Positions 28,089-41,434 of a stretch of 64,000 bases of DNA are shown in pieces (within the stretch, counting starts at the first letter, position 1; each line of letters begins with the position of its first letter). This stretch comes from an uncultured Erythrobacter sp. GTDB taxonomy: Bacteria; Pseudomonadota; Alphaproteobacteria; Sphingomonadales; Sphingomonadaceae. The translations under genes and the position numbers were made by a program. The notes under the pieces were generated by a model, which saw only the letters and a program-made list of their open reading frames with translations, was not told where the DNA came from and ran no database searches. Location of the stretch: assembly GCA_947495555.1 (NCBI GenBank), contig CANLZI010000001.1, positions 1,774,861-1,838,860 of the forward strand, read 5' to 3'.

Positions 28089-28681
28089 GAGGGAATCTCA
28101 CCCAGATCGCGTAATGCGCCCAACACACCCAGCAAGGGCATGCCCAAAACGGTGAATTGATCACCTTCGATCCGGTCGAACAATTGTACGCCCAGGGCCT
28201 CTATCCTGAACACTCCCACACAATATCCAACCTCGGGCCATTCCTGATCAAGATATTCCTCGATGAAGGCATCGCTCAGATCGCGCACATACAGCTTTGC
28301 GATTGAAGGCGCGCTCCATTCGCAGCTTTCATTGCGCACCAATGCTGCGGCGCTGTGCAGCTCCATCATTTTGCCCGAGAAGAAGCGCAAATGGCCTGCG
28401 GCATTGTCGCGACTGGTGGGTTTATCGAAACGCTTACCCTCCACAACCACCAGGGAATCGCTGCCCAACACCAGCGCATCCTTGTGCAGAGCCGCAACAG
28501 CGTGGGCCTTACTCACCGCCAAGGCCAAGGCGATATCTTGCGGGGATGAGCCAGCCAAACTGTCTTCAATGGCGCGTTCATCCAGTTCGGCGGGAATGGC
28601 CCGATAGGATACGCCAGCTGCATCCAGCATGGTGCGCCGCGATGATGATTTGGAGGCGAGTATGAGCGAGTTTTCAGTCAT
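28085..28681 (-). CDS. maf: Maf-family nucleotide pyrophosphatase
   Basis: Maf enzymes hydrolyse non-canonical or modified nucleoside triphosphates to monophosphates. Motifs are LASKSSSRRTMLDAAGV at the start, LGSDSLVVVEGKRFDKP with the catalytic Asp, and GYCVGVFRIEALG. There are 198 residues. Whether it prefers dTTP/UTP or m7GTP cannot be decided from sequence. It overlaps both ppsR and aroE by 4 bases. Confidence 0.92.
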   Translation of the reverse strand: MTENSLILASKSSSRRTMLDAAGVSYRAIPAELDERAIEDSLAGSSPQDIALALAVSKAHAVAALHKDALVLGSDSLVVVEGKRFDKPTSRDNAAGHLRFFSGKMMELHSAAALVRNESCEWSAPSIAKLYVRDLSDAFIEEYLDQEWPEVGYCVGVFRIEALGVQLFDRIEGDQFTVLGMPLLGVLGALRDLGEIPS

Positions 28682-29523
28682 ATCGGTTTTGCAGTCCCGT
28701 CGACCGGCTTTGCCTGCCGGTTGCGTTCTTGCACCAGGCGAATAATCGCGGCCGCACTTTCCTCAATCGAGCGACGCGTCACATCGATCACCGGCCAACC
28801 ATTGTCGGCAAACATGCGGCGGGCAAACTTCACTTCTGCGTTAACGCGGTCGTTATCGACATAGGACGTTTCCGTGCCCTCGTTGAGCGACAACAGCCGA
28901 TTGCGGCGGATCTGCACCAAGCGTTCAGGTGCGGTGGTCAGTCCCACAACCAAGGGATGGCGCAGACCATACAAAGCCTTGGGCGGCGGGCTTTCAACCA
29001 CCAGCGGGATGTTCGCCACCTTATATCCGCGATTGGCCAGATAAATGCTGGTGGGGGTTTTGGAGCTGCGCGATACACCGGCCAGAACGATGTCCGCCTC
29101 TTCCCAATTTTCCCAACCAATCCCGTCATCATGCGCGATGGTGAACTGGATCGCCTCAACCCGCTTGAAATATGCTTCATCCATCAAGTGCTGACGGCCC
29201 GGGCGGCCATGGGCTTCTTGACCCAATTGCGCTTCCAATGCCGAGGTAACCGCATCCAACGCGGGCACCGCCGGCAAACCGATCTGGCGGCAATGCTCCT
29301 CCAGCCGAGCGCGGGTTTCTGCATTGACTAATGTAAACAGAACGAGGCCAGGATTGGCCGCCAAATCAGGCACAATCCGGTCAAGATGTTGACGCGAGCG
29401 CACCATTGGCCAAAAGTGGCGTACCACATCGGCGTCCTCAAACTGAGCCAGCGCAGCCTTGGCAATCATCTCCAAAGTCTCTCCTGTGGAGTCGGACACA
29501 AGGTGCAAATGGAGACGTTTCAT
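28678..29523 (-). CDS. ppsR: Pyruvate, phosphate dikinase regulatory protein (DUF299)
   Basis: This bifunctional kinase and pyrophosphorylase switches PPDK or PEP synthase on and off by threonine phosphorylation. MKRLHLHLVSDSTGETLEMIAKAALAQF at the start, the P-loop-like GVSRSSKTPTSIYLANRGYKVAN, and RLLSLNEGTETSYVDNDRVNAEV are diagnostic. There are 281 residues. The ATG at 29523 matches the family start; an open frame runs further upstream but enters the candidate origin. It is the first leftward gene from that spacer. Confidence 0.92.
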   Translation of the reverse strand: MKRLHLHLVSDSTGETLEMIAKAALAQFEDADVVRHFWPMVRSRQHLDRIVPDLAANPGLVLFTLVNAETRARLEEHCRQIGLPAVPALDAVTSALEAQLGQEAHGRPGRQHLMDEAYFKRVEAIQFTIAHDDGIGWENWEEADIVLAGVSRSSKTPTSIYLANRGYKVANIPLVVESPPPKALYGLRHPLVVGLTTAPERLVQIRRNRLLSLNEGTETSYVDNDRVNAEVKFARRMFADNGWPVIDVTRRSIEESAAAIIRLVQERNRQAKPVDGTAKPI

Positions 29524-29849
29524 ATTGGGTGGCTGCGGTCTTTTTTGGCTGTGGAAACAGCTGGCATAAACCACGGGAGAAGTCTGGCGACAAGTTCGGG
29601 GATAGTTTCCATGCCCAGAACGAGTCCTGCTCACGTCTGTTTTTCGACATTCGACAGTGCTTATCGACAGGCTGGGGAGAAGCGGGATAAGTTTTGGTGG
29701 ACTCACAGTCTGCCGCGATTCGCAGCACGTTTGGGTGTTCTCAAACGGGGAAAAATCGGGCAGTGGGCCGTTGTCCCCGAAATCCACAGGGCCAACAAAC
29801 ACCAACAACTCTTATAAATATATATATTATATTGATTGGACCTAACCGA
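29524..29849. other. Candidate chromosomal replication origin (oriC)
   Basis: This divergent spacer holds no gene and has origin hallmarks. DnaA-box-like nonamers with one mismatch to TTWTNCACA are TTTTCGACA (29641), TTATCGACA (29661) and reversed TGTGGAAAC (29550). An extra ATTCGACA lies at 29649 and AAATCCACA at 29780. An AT-rich tract (29811-29837, CTTATAAATATATATATTAT) next to hemE could be the unwinding element. Three GANTC methylation sites occur within 100 bases (29622, 29700, 29717). In Caulobacter the origin lies beside hemE, and the gene blocks here diverge from it. Confidence 0.68.
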
Positions 29850-30869
29850 ATGCCTGGTTTGCTTCTCGATACATTGCGCGGAATGAAGGGTGAGAAAGCC
29901 CCCATGTGGCTGATGCGCCAGGCTGGTCGCTACTTGCCAGAATATCGGGCATTGCGGGCAGAGAAGGGCGGCTTTCTCGATCTGGTTTATGATAGCGAGG
30001 CTGCTGCCGAAGTGACGCTTCAGCCTTTGCGCCGGTTTGCCTTTGATGGCGCAATCTTGTTCTCCGATATTTTGATTGTTCCGCATGCGATGGGTCAACA
30101 TCTGGAGTTTCTGGTTGGGGAAGGTCCCAAATTGTCACCGCGTTTGGTGGATAGCGGGTTAGAGAATTTTACCGCGCAGATGGAACGGTTTGATCCGATT
30201 TATCAAACGGTGCGTCTGTGCCGCGAGCAGCTCGACGAGTCCGTAACCATGCTGGGATTTGCTGGCAGTCCGTGGACCGTTGCGACCTATATGGTAGCAG
30301 GCGAGGGCAGCCGCGATCAGCATGAGACCCGCGCTTTGGCCTATCGCGATCCAGCGCAGTTCCAGGCGATTATCGATGCTATCGAACAGGTCTCGATCAC
30401 CTATCTGCGCGGCCAGATCGACGCCGGTGCAGAGGCTGTGCAATTGTTCGATAGTTGGGCGGGATCCCTGGCGCCAGATGAGTTTGAACGCTGGGTCATC
30501 GGACCCAATGCGCGCATCACCGCCGCGCTCAAGCAAAGCCATCCTGACACGCCGGTCATCGGTTTTCCCAAAGGTGCTGGCGCAAAATTGACCGCCTATG
30601 CCCAGGAAACTGGCGTGGATGCTTTGGGCTTGGATGAAACGGTTGATCCCTATTGGGCAGACAGCGCTTTGCCCGAAGGAATGCCGGTTCAAGGCAATCT
30701 GGACCCCTTGTTACTGCTGGCTGGTGGCGAGCATCTAACGAGCCGGATCGACACGATTTTGCACGCCTTTGCCGATCGTCCCCATGTGTTCAATCTGGGT
30801 CACGGCATTGGCCAATTCACCCCGATCGAGCATGTTGAGCAATTGGTCGCGCACGTTCGTGGCGATTAA
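29850..30869 (+). CDS. hemE: Uroporphyrinogen decarboxylase
   Basis: HemE removes four acetate carboxyls from uroporphyrinogen III to give coproporphyrinogen III. Key motifs are WLMRQAGRYLPEYRALR with the substrate arginines, FSDILIVPHAMG with the catalytic Asp, GFAGSPWTVATYM, VQLFDSWAG, VIGFPKGAG, and NLGHGIGQFTPIEHV near the end. There are 339 residues from the ATG at 29850. This is the first rightward gene from the candidate oriC. hemJ follows. Confidence 0.96.
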   Translation: MPGLLLDTLRGMKGEKAPMWLMRQAGRYLPEYRALRAEKGGFLDLVYDSEAAAEVTLQPLRRFAFDGAILFSDILIVPHAMGQHLEFLVGEGPKLSPRLVDSGLENFTAQMERFDPIYQTVRLCREQLDESVTMLGFAGSPWTVATYMVAGEGSRDQHETRALAYRDPAQFQAIIDAIEQVSITYLRGQIDAGAEAVQLFDSWAGSLAPDEFERWVIGPNARITAALKQSHPDTPVIGFPKGAGAKLTAYAQETGVDALGLDETVDPYWADSALPEGMPVQGNLDPLLLLAGGEHLTSRIDTILHAFADRPHVFNLGHGIGQFTPIEHVEQLVAHVRGD

Positions 30870-37051: not shown

Positions 37052-37067
37052 TGTTCCACGTGGAACA
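37052..37067. promoter_or_regulatory. parS centromere site 1
   Basis: TGTTCCACGTGGAACA is a perfect 16-base palindrome of the parS type bound by ParB. It lies in the mnmE-mnmG spacer, 14 kb from parS-dependent functions such as the PopZ-like gene but only 3 kb from parB. Confidence 0.9.
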
Positions 37068-38997: not shown

Positions 38998-39620
38998 CCA
39001 TACAGGACGAACCATCTGCCCGCCGATTCGTTGAAGAAATGGCTGATTCAGAGGCCCTGAAACGGCTTGATTTGCTTGCTTCACTACTTCTCGATGAAAA
39101 TTCCCGGCAAAACCTCATTTCGAAACCATCTGAGGAACACGTCTGGCAAAGGCACATTGCAGACAGCGCCCAACTGCTGAAATTTGTTCCACGTGAAACA
39201 TGTGACAGCGGCGATGCGGTTTGGCTCGATCTTGGTACAGGGGCGGGATTTCCAGGTCTGGTTATCGCTGCAATATGCCCACAAATGTCTGTAATATTGG
39301 TAGAATCTCGTCGCCGCCGGGTCGAGTGGCTTGAGCGAGCCAAATCGGAGATGGGCCTGTCCAAATGCGAGGTAGACGGCAGACGGCTTGAGATGGTTGA
39401 TCCATTTCCCGCTCGCTTCATTTCTGCTCGCGCCTTTGCGCCGTTACCCAAATTGCTCAAATTATCCGCACCATTTTCCACAGCGGCAACCACCTACCTG
39501 TTGCCGAAAGGGCGTTCAGCAGCGCAAGAATTGCAGAACCAGCCTGCGAAGAGTCGAAAATTGTTCCACGTGGAACAATCATTGACCGATCCGGAGGCGG
39601 GCATCATTGTCAGCAATTGA
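38994..39620 (+). CDS. rsmG: 16S rRNA m7G527 methyltransferase RsmG
   Basis: RsmG methylates G527 of 16S rRNA with SAM; loss gives low-level streptomycin resistance. The SAM motif is [16 protein letters not shown], and [16 protein letters not shown], with [17 protein letters not shown], completes the fold. There are 208 residues. Two parS sites are embedded in its reading frame, at 39185 and 39562, encoding FVPRET and FHVEQ. This is the classic mnmG-rsmG-parA-parB order. Confidence 0.95.
39185..39200. promoter_or_regulatory. parS centromere site 2 (inside rsmG)
   Basis: TGTTCCACGTGAAACA matches the parS palindrome with one asymmetric pair. It is read through as coding sequence of rsmG. Confidence 0.85.
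39562..39577. promoter_or_regulatory. parS centromere site 3 (end of rsmG)
   Basis: TGTTCCACGTGGAACA, identical to site 1, lies 80 bases before the parA start and may also let ParB act on the parAB promoter region. Confidence 0.9.
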
Positions 39621-39656: not shown

Positions 39657-40436
39657 ATGATCACTATTGCGATTGCCAATCAAAAGGGTGGTGTGGGCAA
39701 GACCACAACCGCGATCAACATCGCCACCGCTATGGCCGCTACGGGCTGGCGCACCTTGTTGATTGACCTCGATCCGCAGGGAAATGCCTCCACTGGCATG
39801 GGTGTGGGTGCAGAAGCGCGTAGCGTATCGAGCTATGATTTGTTGGTAGACGAGGCACCGTTGGAAGATGCGATCGTCGGCACGAGCATTCCTGGCCTGG
39901 ATGTGGTTCCGGCCACCGTTGACCTGAGTGGCGCCGAGGTGGAGTTGGTTTCGGTTGATGAGCGGACATCACGCCTGTCCAATGCTCTGCGCAACCACCA
40001 TGGCCATGACATTTGCTTTATCGACTGCCCGCCATCGCTCGGATTGCTGACCCTGAATGCCTTGTCGGCCGCCGATACGCTGTTGGTGCCTTTGCAATGC
40101 GAATTCTTTGCTTTGGAGGGTTTAAGCCAGCTTTTACAGACGGTTGAGCGCGTTCAGCAGAATTTGAATCCAAATCTGGGCATTATCGGAGTGACGCTCA
40201 CGATGTTTGATCGCCGCAACCGCCTGACCGACCAAGTGGCCGATGATGTGCGCGATTGTTTGGGCAATCTGGTGTTTGATACCGTCATTCCGCGCAATGT
40301 GCGCCTGTCAGAGGCGCCCAGCCACGGATTGCCGGCGCTTGTCTATGATCACTCTTGCGCTGGCAGCCGCGCTTACATTGGCCTCGCCCGCGAATTGATC
40401 AGCCGTCTACCACCTCAACAGAAAGCAGCAGCATGA
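39657..40436 (+). CDS. parA: Chromosome partitioning ATPase ParA
   Basis: ParA binds DNA non-specifically in its ATP form and drives movement of the ParB-parS complex. The deviant Walker A KGGVGKTTTAIN is at residues 10-21, LLIDLDPQGNASTG follows, and the Walker B region is CFIDCPPSLGLL. SHGLPALVYD near the C-terminus is typical. There are 259 residues. The stop overlaps the parB start by 4 bases (ATGA). Confidence 0.97.
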   Translation: MITIAIANQKGGVGKTTTAINIATAMAATGWRTLLIDLDPQGNASTGMGVGAEARSVSSYDLLVDEAPLEDAIVGTSIPGLDVVPATVDLSGAEVELVSVDERTSRLSNALRNHHGHDICFIDCPPSLGLLTLNALSAADTLLVPLQCEFFALEGLSQLLQTVERVQQNLNPNLGIIGVTLTMFDRRNRLTDQVADDVRDCLGNLVFDTVIPRNVRLSEAPSHGLPALVYDHSCAGSRAYIGLARELISRLPPQQKAAA

Positions 40437-41434
40437 GCGATCCCAGCGATCCCATCCAATTCAGTGGTCCTGCGCGGACCGCGGCAGACAAAAAGAAGAA
40501 GCTTGGCAAGGGCTTAGGCGCATTATTGGGGGAAACCCGCCGGGAAGAGCCTTTGGTCCAGCAAACGCCTCAAGATCTGAATGCTCCACGGCAAAATGCT
40601 GCTGGTTCCGCTTCGAGCGCGACTCCAACATCTGGATTGGCCTCTCTCGCTATTTCATCGATTTCGCCGCTGCCCGGACAGCCGCGCAAGCGATTTGACG
40701 ATGAGGCGCTGTCCGAATTGGCCGCCTCTATCGCCGCGCGCGGTGTGATCCAGCCCATTATTGTGCGGCCAAAGGGTGAGGGCCGTTATCAATTGGTGGC
40801 GGGCGAGCGGCGTTGGCGCGCTGCTCAGAAGGCGCAACTGCATGAAATCCCAGCACTTGTTCGTGATCTTGATGATCGCGAGGTGATGGCATTAGCGCTG
40901 ATTGAGAACATTCAGCGCGAGGATTTGAATCCCATCGAAGAGGCGCGGGCCTATCACCGTTTGAGCGAAGACGAAGGTATGACCCAGTCCGATATCGCGC
41001 AGATGGTAGAGAAGTCACGAAGTCACGTGGCTAACCTGCAGCGTTTGCTCAACTTGCCGAGCGATGTCCTTGATTTGGTTGAGGACAATCAGCTTTCCAT
41101 GGGCCATGCACGTGCGCTAATCGGGCATGATGACGCATCCAGCCTGGCGAAAGCGGCTGTGAAGAACGGCTTTTCAGTGCGCGAAGTCGAAGCACTGGCG
41201 CGTGGCACCGCTTTGGAAGCGCCAAAGGGTTCGTCAAAGACGGCTCCGGTTCCTCGCGATCCCGCCAAAGATGCCGATATTGCTGCGGTGCAGGCGCATC
41301 TGGAGGAGTTTTTGGGTCTAACCGTGCGGATCAAGACCGATGCCGATCCGCGCTCGGGAGCCGTTACGATCCGTTATCGCACGCTCGATCAATTGGATTT
41401 GGTCTGTCAGAGGCTGACGGGCGGCGATATCTAA
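40433..41434 (+). CDS. parB: Chromosome partitioning protein ParB
   Basis: ParB is a CTP-dependent clamp that loads at parS and spreads. The N-terminal ParA-stimulating motif LGKGLGALLGE is at about residues 22-32. The CTPase domain shows QPRKRFDDEAL, VRPKGEGRYQLVAGERRWRAA and ENIQREDLNPIEEA. The HTH is MTQSDIAQMVEKSRSHVANLQRLLNLP. The C-terminal dimerisation domain ends RYRTLDQLDLVCQRL. There are 334 codons from the ATG overlapping parA. The three parS sites lie upstream. Confidence 0.97.
   Translation: MSDPSDPIQFSGPARTAADKKKKLGKGLGALLGETRREEPLVQQTPQDLNAPRQNAAGSASSATPTSGLASLAISSISPLPGQPRKRFDDEALSELAASIAARGVIQPIIVRPKGEGRYQLVAGERRWRAAQKAQLHEIPALVRDLDDREVMALALIENIQREDLNPIEEARAYHRLSEDEGMTQSDIAQMVEKSRSHVANLQRLLNLPSDVLDLVEDNQLSMGHARALIGHDDASSLAKAAVKNGFSVREVEALARGTALEAPKGSSKTAPVPRDPAKDADIAAVQAHLEEFLGLTVRIKTDADPRSGAVTIRYRTLDQLDLVCQRLTGGDI

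Follow-up and report, generated by a model that had tools for sequence, protein, structure and literature searches.

The Caulobacter Cori and the Rickettsia origins are both flanked by hemE and a COG1806 gene, according to the accessible part of PMC1914354, and in the Sphingomonadaceae oriC has been predicted at hemE (accessible part of PMC4741004). Elements described for Caulobacter include the G-box TGATCCACA, the W-box TCCCCA and CtrA sites (available sections of PMC4285127 and PMC4468827). For the Sphingomonadales, the available text of a further source states that proximity of dnaA to ori is not conserved, and that parAB can usefully serve as an anchor (PMC8116508).

The locus considered here belongs to an uncultured Erythrobacter sp. 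with a genome of 2.78 Mb in four contigs, whose nearest named relatives by hemE are Altererythrobacter and Erythrobacter records (among the best 80 of 594 loci). The window, that is, the whole 64,000-nucleotide stretch that was analysed, corresponds to positions 1,774,861-1,838,860 of contig C1, on which the spacer between ppsR and hemE occupies 1,804,384-1,804,709. A first-pass annotation of the window had described this spacer as non-coding, divergent and 326 bases long, and had proposed it as a candidate origin; its extent is exact, and the flanking genes are recognised by PF03618, which we take to be DUF299/COG1806, and by PF01208. The gene blocks said to diverge from it, ppsR-maf-aroE-coaE-dnaQ to the left and hemE-hemJ-rho to the right, are likewise backed by Pfam, with matches for maf, aroE, coaE, a dnaQ-like exonuclease (PF00929), UPF0093 (presumably hemJ), rho, parA and parB. 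In addition, parABS is indeed close by, with parA, parB and three perfect parS sites 7-12 kb from the spacer and the parS sites alone at 7-10 kb (Table 1). The mechanically called parB ORF overlaps parA, and thus the true parB start is probably further right.

The analogy with Caulobacter drawn in the same annotation holds for the neighbourhood, since the same pair, hemE (CC3763) and the COG1806 gene CC0001, flanks a Cori spacer of similar size (404 bp), which also contains DnaA boxes and an AT-rich tract (accessible part of PMC1914354). In contrast to Cori, the Erythrobacter spacer is without a G-box, CtrA site or strict IHF match, and its central boxes read TCGACA. As in the present locus, where parABS is near, parS presumably lies near Cori. 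Canonical CtrA sites, strict IHF sites and G-boxes, all features of Caulobacter, are not found in 101 distinct sphingomonad spacers save for one CtrA-like match: TTAA-N7-TTAA occurs 0 times in the spacer studied here, in 0 of 27 spacers of the genus and in 1 of 101 overall, the G-box TGATCCACA in 0 of 101, and the strict IHF consensus, WATCAANNNNTTR, also in 0 of 101, a count for the strict consensus only, such that a looser site may exist. Control by CtrA and IHF through canonical sites was discarded, as these sites are absent from the spacer. The W-box TCCCCA is present once in the spacer, which is not above chance by itself, and throughout the genus (Table 1).

Two other comparisons are instructive. 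The oriCs predicted at hemE in Sphingomonadaceae, such as that of Sphingopyxis granuli TFA (accessible part of PMC4741004; DoriC), resemble the present spacer in locus, in DnaA boxes with a putative unwinding element, and in order, but three Sphingopyxis loci (L035, L049 and L050) carry a central TTATCCACAGGCTGTG and no TCCACA box by the AT tract, the reverse of what is seen here. The Bacillus-type BUS (PMC8287927) is alike in its box, short spacer, repeated-triplet-like tract and AT-rich DNA, and unlike in its middle-A trios; relatives of the present spacer are enriched for no more than a looser C-N-N signal of period 3.

With its divergent flanks, several DnaA boxes, AT-rich element and GC-skew minimum, the spacer is, by prediction from sequence, an alphaproteobacterial oriC of the hemE/COG1806 type, which is on record from Caulobacter, Rickettsia and the Sphingomonadaceae; the lack of a G-box, canonical CtrA site and strict IHF match is the reason for filing it there and not as a CtrA-regulated Cori. 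Location, conservation, skew and sequence elements all support the candidate, and the ppsR-hemE spacer is very probably the chromosomal replication origin. It would almost certainly be an ordinary origin at the place usual for related bacteria, whose DnaA sites have drifted in its lineage.

Table 1. Predicted and recognised features of the ppsR-hemE locus (window coordinates).
Feature	Position	Strand	Basis or remark
ppsR (COG1806/DUF299 type), left flank	28678-29523	-	PF03618, 315 bits
ppsR-hemE divergent spacer, predicted chromosomal oriC	29524-29849		326 bp; GC-skew minimum and conserved spacer and flanks
Predicted DnaA box GTTTCCACA	29550-29558	-	TGTGGA conservation on ppsR side
Promoter-like pair TTGTCG (29588-29593), 17 nt, TTTATG (29565-29570)	29565-29593	-	toward ppsR
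TCCCCG, weak-box-like	29597-29602	-	motif match
GANTC (GAGTC)	29622-29626		motif match
DnaA-box variant TTTTCGACA	29641-29649	+	genus alignment consensus tTgtc.ACA; TCGACA enrichment in genus
DnaA-box variant CATTCGACA	29648-29656	+	motif match; position not conserved in genus alignment
DnaA-box variant TTATCGACA, counterpart of TTATCCACA of other sphingomonads	29661-29669	+	same distance from hemE, ~180 bases, in both types
TCCCCA, Caulobacter W-box-like	29673-29678	-	in 27/27 genus spacers, 7.1 expected
GANTC (GACTC)	29700-29704		positional peak -156 to -149 from hemE
GANTC (GATTC), best-conserved position	29717-29721		all 27 genus spacers have a GANTC between -140 and -128 relative to hemE
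TCCCCG, weak-box-like	29746-29751	-	motif match
TCCCCG, weak-box-like, directly before AAATCCACA box	29774-29779	+	motif match
Predicted DnaA box AAATCCACA, best conserved, adjoins AT tract	29780-29788	+	TCCACAGGGCCAACA near-invariant in genus alignment
C-rich tract, last DnaA box to AT tract	29789-29811	+	relaxed CNN run of 4; DnaA-trio-like in relaxed sense only
AT-rich tract, predicted DNA-unwinding element	29812-29838		92.6% A+T; same place in genus alignment
hemE, right flank	29850-30869	+	PF01208, 364 bits
parS TGTTCCACGTGGAACA	37052-37067		0 mismatches
parS TGTTCCACGTGAAACA	39185-39200		0 mismatches
parS TGTTCCACGTGGAACA	39562-39577		0 mismatches
parA	39657-40436	+	PF13614, 200 bits
parB (mechanical ORF)	40355-41434	+	PF02195, PF17762, PF23552

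Conservation was assessed over 110 loci, the best 80 of 594 plus the best 30 of 95 matching genus genomes, with the copy studied here and two duplicates included. The divergent ppsR/hemE pair is present in 104 of these 110 best-scoring loci; for the remaining six, ppsR was not found by hemE, two being contig ends and four having no ppsR within about 3 kb. Setting aside the two duplicates and L031, for which the ppsR start was not aligned, leaves 101 distinct spacers, own included, of 280-436 bp. The genus group consists of 27 distinct spacers from L083-L112 (27 aligned, 26 displayed), the genus sequences L003 and L006 being counted with the rest. Class-wide, a hemE match was obtained in 98 of 115 genomes, with divergent ppsR in 27 of the best 30 of these 98 loci, and among chosen genomes of the order the divergent pair is found in 29 of 30, the exception being a short upstream sequence. 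These sets of loci overlap in part, and each takes in close kin. Because of shared ancestry the spacer counts are not independent, and comparisons with shuffled sequence thus speak for conservation and not for independent events.

The genus alignment resolves into conserved blocks along the whole spacer. On the ppsR side these are TGTGGA at 29550 and GGCATAAACCACGGGAGA, with CGACAAG downstream, and in the centre the box-like sites at 29641 and 29661, GCTGGGGA at 29671 and the GANTC at 29717, while on the hemE side TCCACAGGGCCAACA at 29783 is followed by the AT tract and TTGATTGGA. The DnaA-box hexamer TCCACA/TGTGGA is found in all 101 distinct Sphingomonadales spacers, own included, as against 14.6 expected. 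At 50-80 nt upstream of hemE, a TCCACA is seen in 26 of the 27 genus spacers (57 of all 101), and 22 of the 27 have a TGTGGA no more than 110 nt from the ppsR side.

The three nonamers named in the first-pass annotation, TTTTCGACA, TTATCGACA and TGTGGAAAC (the last entered in Table 1 as GTTTCCACA), are all present in the spacer. Absent from that annotation were AAATCCACA, CATTCGACA, the TCCCCA and the three TCCCCG sites, and it is the predicted AAATCCACA at 29780, by the AT tract, that is the best-conserved DnaA box, rather than any site of the TCGACA cluster. Chance expectation for the single spacer was taken from 500 dinucleotide shuffles of its own sequence. The spacer holds several candidate DnaA boxes, three TCGACA and two TCCACA sites, numbers that were equalled in 1 and 7 of the 500 shuffles, respectively, and its three TCCCCG sites were equalled in 2 of 500. 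For the single TCCCCA and the three GANTC sites the corresponding figures are 132 and 61 of 500, and since shuffles reach them so often, these two counts are unremarkable for this spacer alone. In the genus, TCCCCG amounts to 31 sites in 20 of 27 spacers, with 7.3 sites expected. The perfect box TTATCCACA occurs neither in the spacer studied here nor in the 27 genus spacers. Genome-wide, TTNTCSACA has 160 matches as compared with 132 for a reversed control pattern, and nonamers alone therefore do not mark an origin; the nonamer list as sole proof was discarded on this count. The case for an origin is carried by comparison, namely by skew, relatives and parABS, the listed nonamers being weak evidence by themselves.

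The spacers fall into two types with respect to their boxes. Type 1, to which the present spacer belongs, comprises the 57 of 101 in which a TCCACA box adjoins the AT tract, 50-80 nt upstream of hemE, and the other type the 44 without a box by that tract. In the central region (165-240 nt upstream of hemE), TCGACAG is found in 23 and TCCACAG in 1 of the type 1 spacers, of which 35 have (G/C)CTGGGGA and 3 have TTATCCACA anywhere; for the other type these counts are 0, 31, 0 and 30, respectively. Such a distribution indicates that TTATCGACA is the lineage's counterpart of the canonical box. The central TCGACAG is common but not universal in type 1, with some members of the genus reading TCAAC, CCCAC or TCCCC there. 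The boxes with G for C had been called unusual and clustered at 29641-29669; they do lie there, but are not peculiar to this genome, because 21 of 27 genus spacers carry TCGACA. Among the open-library papers listed on sphingomonad oriC and on DnaA boxes of the class, we recognised no account of the TTATCGACA variant, a weak hint that it may be undescribed.

Whether the TCGACA sites are DnaA boxes at all is the point on which an alternative fares best. DnaA might use the two TCCACA boxes only, with TCGACA representing the site of another regulator or decay, a reading that we regard as somewhat doubtful but a real contender. Position 6 of the variant differs from every high-affinity nonamer box tabulated in the accessible part of PMC4285127, the central site in the genus can also read TCAAC, CCCAC or TCCCC, and the family genomes g111, g112 and g114 have DnaA of the same type with no TCGACA in the spacer. 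Moreover, the TCGACA repeats found downstream of dnaA have hairpin-forming potential as well (z -3.6 for the sequence of this genome). Against this reading, TCGACA is enriched in the genus, with 34 places in 21 of 27 spacers where 3.4 are expected (overlaps merged, so that TGTCGACA is not scored once per strand), its sites occupy the place of TCCACAG in other spacers, and more of them follow dnaA in this lineage.

The first-pass count of three GANTC sites within 100 bases is accurate, the sites at 29622, 29700 and 29717 spanning exactly 100 bases, and across the Sphingomonadales GANTC is found in 101 of 101 spacers, with 436 sites where 147 are expected. Two ppsR-hemE spacers of the order, L390 and L391, have 13 GANTC each, as against 0-7 in the other 28 order loci. 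The 27-base AT-rich tract noted by hemE was also confirmed as a 27-mer. Between the last box and this tract, published DnaA-trios with a middle A (a run of 3'-(G/A)AN-5' after a DnaA box) reach a run of only 2 in the spacer studied here. The numbers of spacers with a run of at least 3, with expectations in parentheses, are 2 of 27 in the genus (0.8), 4 of 74 (5.3), 4 of 27 in the class (2.8) and 4 of 29 in the order (2.5); published DnaA-trios in relatives are thus at or little above shuffled levels. Trios by the published definition were discarded; unwinding driven by trios may nonetheless occur. A signal of C at every third base is present in the same interval, with a lag-3 z of 10.2 in 74 order spacers and 7.3 in 27 class spacers against mononucleotide shuffles. 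The spacer by itself gives a lag-3 z of 1.3, and for the genus the lag-3 value, 3.1, is weaker than those at lags 7-9. The relaxed CNN run, which is looser than the published trios, is enriched in relatives.

The dnaA gene of this genome (L002; AAA+ domain at C1:1410849-1411331) and those of its family relatives (L282-L297 and L348-L361) encode a divergent DnaA. Family DnaA sequences score 166-197 bits on PF00308 (one exception at 234), as against 224-242 bits in 43 other genomes of the order, and have Walker A variants such as AATGQGKTH, a box VII reading SRLSMGL, and GRDHSTV. The GRDH(S/T)TV motif of DnaA contacts DNA. Serine is found in this motif in 28 of 30 family sequences and 0 of 34 outside, with 3 of 67 dnaA loci missed by the motif pattern.

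Downstream of dnaA, outside the window, the repeats TCGACAGG, TGTCGACAGG, TGTGCGCAGG and TGTAAACAGC lie at C1 ~1412025-1412083 (L002:2677-2735), by eye 11-12 bp apart. Of 17 own-plus-genus genomes, 16 have TCGACA in the 260 nt that follow dnaA and 13 have it there at two places, as against 4 and 0 of 34 outside the family. The stretch in this genome has a more stable fold than shuffled versions of it (z -3.6), and the repeats are possibly a DnaA-binding array or an RNA hairpin. A further reading is that initiator and origin co-diverged, with AATGQGKTH and a Thr-to-Ser change on the side of DnaA, boxes going from TTATCCACA to TNTCGACA, and a TCGACA array by dnaA for titration or autoregulation; we consider such co-divergence unlikely. 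In its simple form it has against it the genomes g111, g112 and g114, with DnaA of the family type and no TCGACA in the origin spacer, and also G243 and G238, which combine serine (L354 and L352) with TTATCCACA in the spacer. The latter two led to the Thr-to-Ser change being discarded as the sole cause of the box change, for they carry serine yet keep TTATCCACA.

These repeats would take on another meaning if they were themselves oriC, the hemE spacer then being merely a promoter region. An origin at dnaA accords with the presence of TCGACA there in nearly all own-plus-genus genomes, and with a skew floor in the present genome that is flat between dnaA and hemE, but GC skew speaks against it. 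The curve combines the window with 59 of 60 sampled 10-kb stretches of C1, about a quarter of the genome; for the fit, the terminus was constrained to 0.3-0.6 Mb. The cumulative minimum on C1 falls at the bin edge 1,806,861, and the best two-state breakpoint is 1,810,000, where the fit explains 41% of the variance (R2 0.41) compared with a poor 0.18-0.20 at 1.40-1.42 Mb, the position of dnaA. The floor is flat from ~1.45 to 1.85 Mb, with a bootstrap median of 1.80 Mb and an interval of 1.50-1.82 Mb. Contig C2 (442 kb), unplaced in the curve, has negative skew in 8 of 9 samples.

Three further genomes were sampled. G012 has its minimum at 1,762,501, the spacer at 1,769,580 and dnaA at 1,360,217; a coarse pass had put this minimum at 1.53-1.67 Mb, and it shifted when the region around the expected position was sampled more finely. 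For G070 the turn from minus to plus lies between samples 2,380,001 and 2,520,001, the spacer at 2,506,986 and dnaA at 230,796, with integration as a linear record leaving the first sample equally low (2508 vs 2589). In the case of G079, the sign changes between samples 2,520,001 and 2,688,001, with the spacer at 2,667,257 and dnaA at 3,174,675. The skew minimum or sign change is therefore at the hemE spacer in four of four sampled genomes, within sampling resolution, and the minimum that the first-pass annotation expected at the spacer was borne out on the sampled stretches; dnaA is 0.4-0.5 Mb off in each, being ~0.5, 0.5 and 0.4 Mb from the turn in G070 (across the record ends), G079 and G012. 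In addition, no AT-rich tract is seen by eye beside the repeats, and TCGACA is in few dnaA-downstream regions outside the family, whereas the hemE spacer is kept. An origin at dnaA, discarded on the skew of the four genomes, is thus very improbable, in agreement with the published Sphingomonadales work, as far as its accessible text goes, on dnaA not being conserved near ori (PMC8116508).

The ppsR side of the spacer also has a promoter-like element. A pair resembling TTGTCG-17-TTTATG is found in 48 of 101 spacers, always with a spacing of 17 nt though 16-18 were allowed. A protein-binding site was initially considered for the conserved GGCATAAACCACGG block, but its fixed 17-nt distance to TTGTCG speaks for a promoter, and the -10 region of a predicted ppsR promoter is therefore the likelier and the best reading of the block. 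A sigma-70 consensus scan found no promoter in the spacer, and an Rfam search for structured RNA there gave only a chance-level match (E 0.78). This fixed pair would suit a reading of the spacer as nothing more than the promoters of two divergent housekeeping genes, conserved as such. That reading is extremely unlikely, as it leaves unexplained the AT tract, the nearby parABS, the skew in four genomes and the presence of the DnaA-box hexamer in every one of the 101 spacers.

For the favoured reading, an origin in the ppsR-hemE spacer, the following sequence of events may be envisaged. DnaA would bind the TCCACA boxes by the AT tract and on the ppsR side, and would assemble co-operatively over the weaker central sites, that is, TNTCGACA at 29641-29669 and TCCCCA/TCCCCG. 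The resulting oligomer would open the AT tract next to hemE, where the helicase would be loaded. Forks would then proceed leftward through ppsR-maf-aroE-coaE-dnaQ and rightward, in the direction of parABS, through hemE-hemJ-rho; the parS sites, 7-10 kb off, may place the new origins in the cell. Methylation of the conserved GANTC sites may report the state of replication, and the conserved promoter-like pair would serve ppsR.

If the TCGACA boxes do bind DnaA, the E. coli box consensus would be too narrow for this group. What is gained is a well-supported predicted origin, together with a map of conserved boxes, for a lineage in which dnaA is no guide to oriC.
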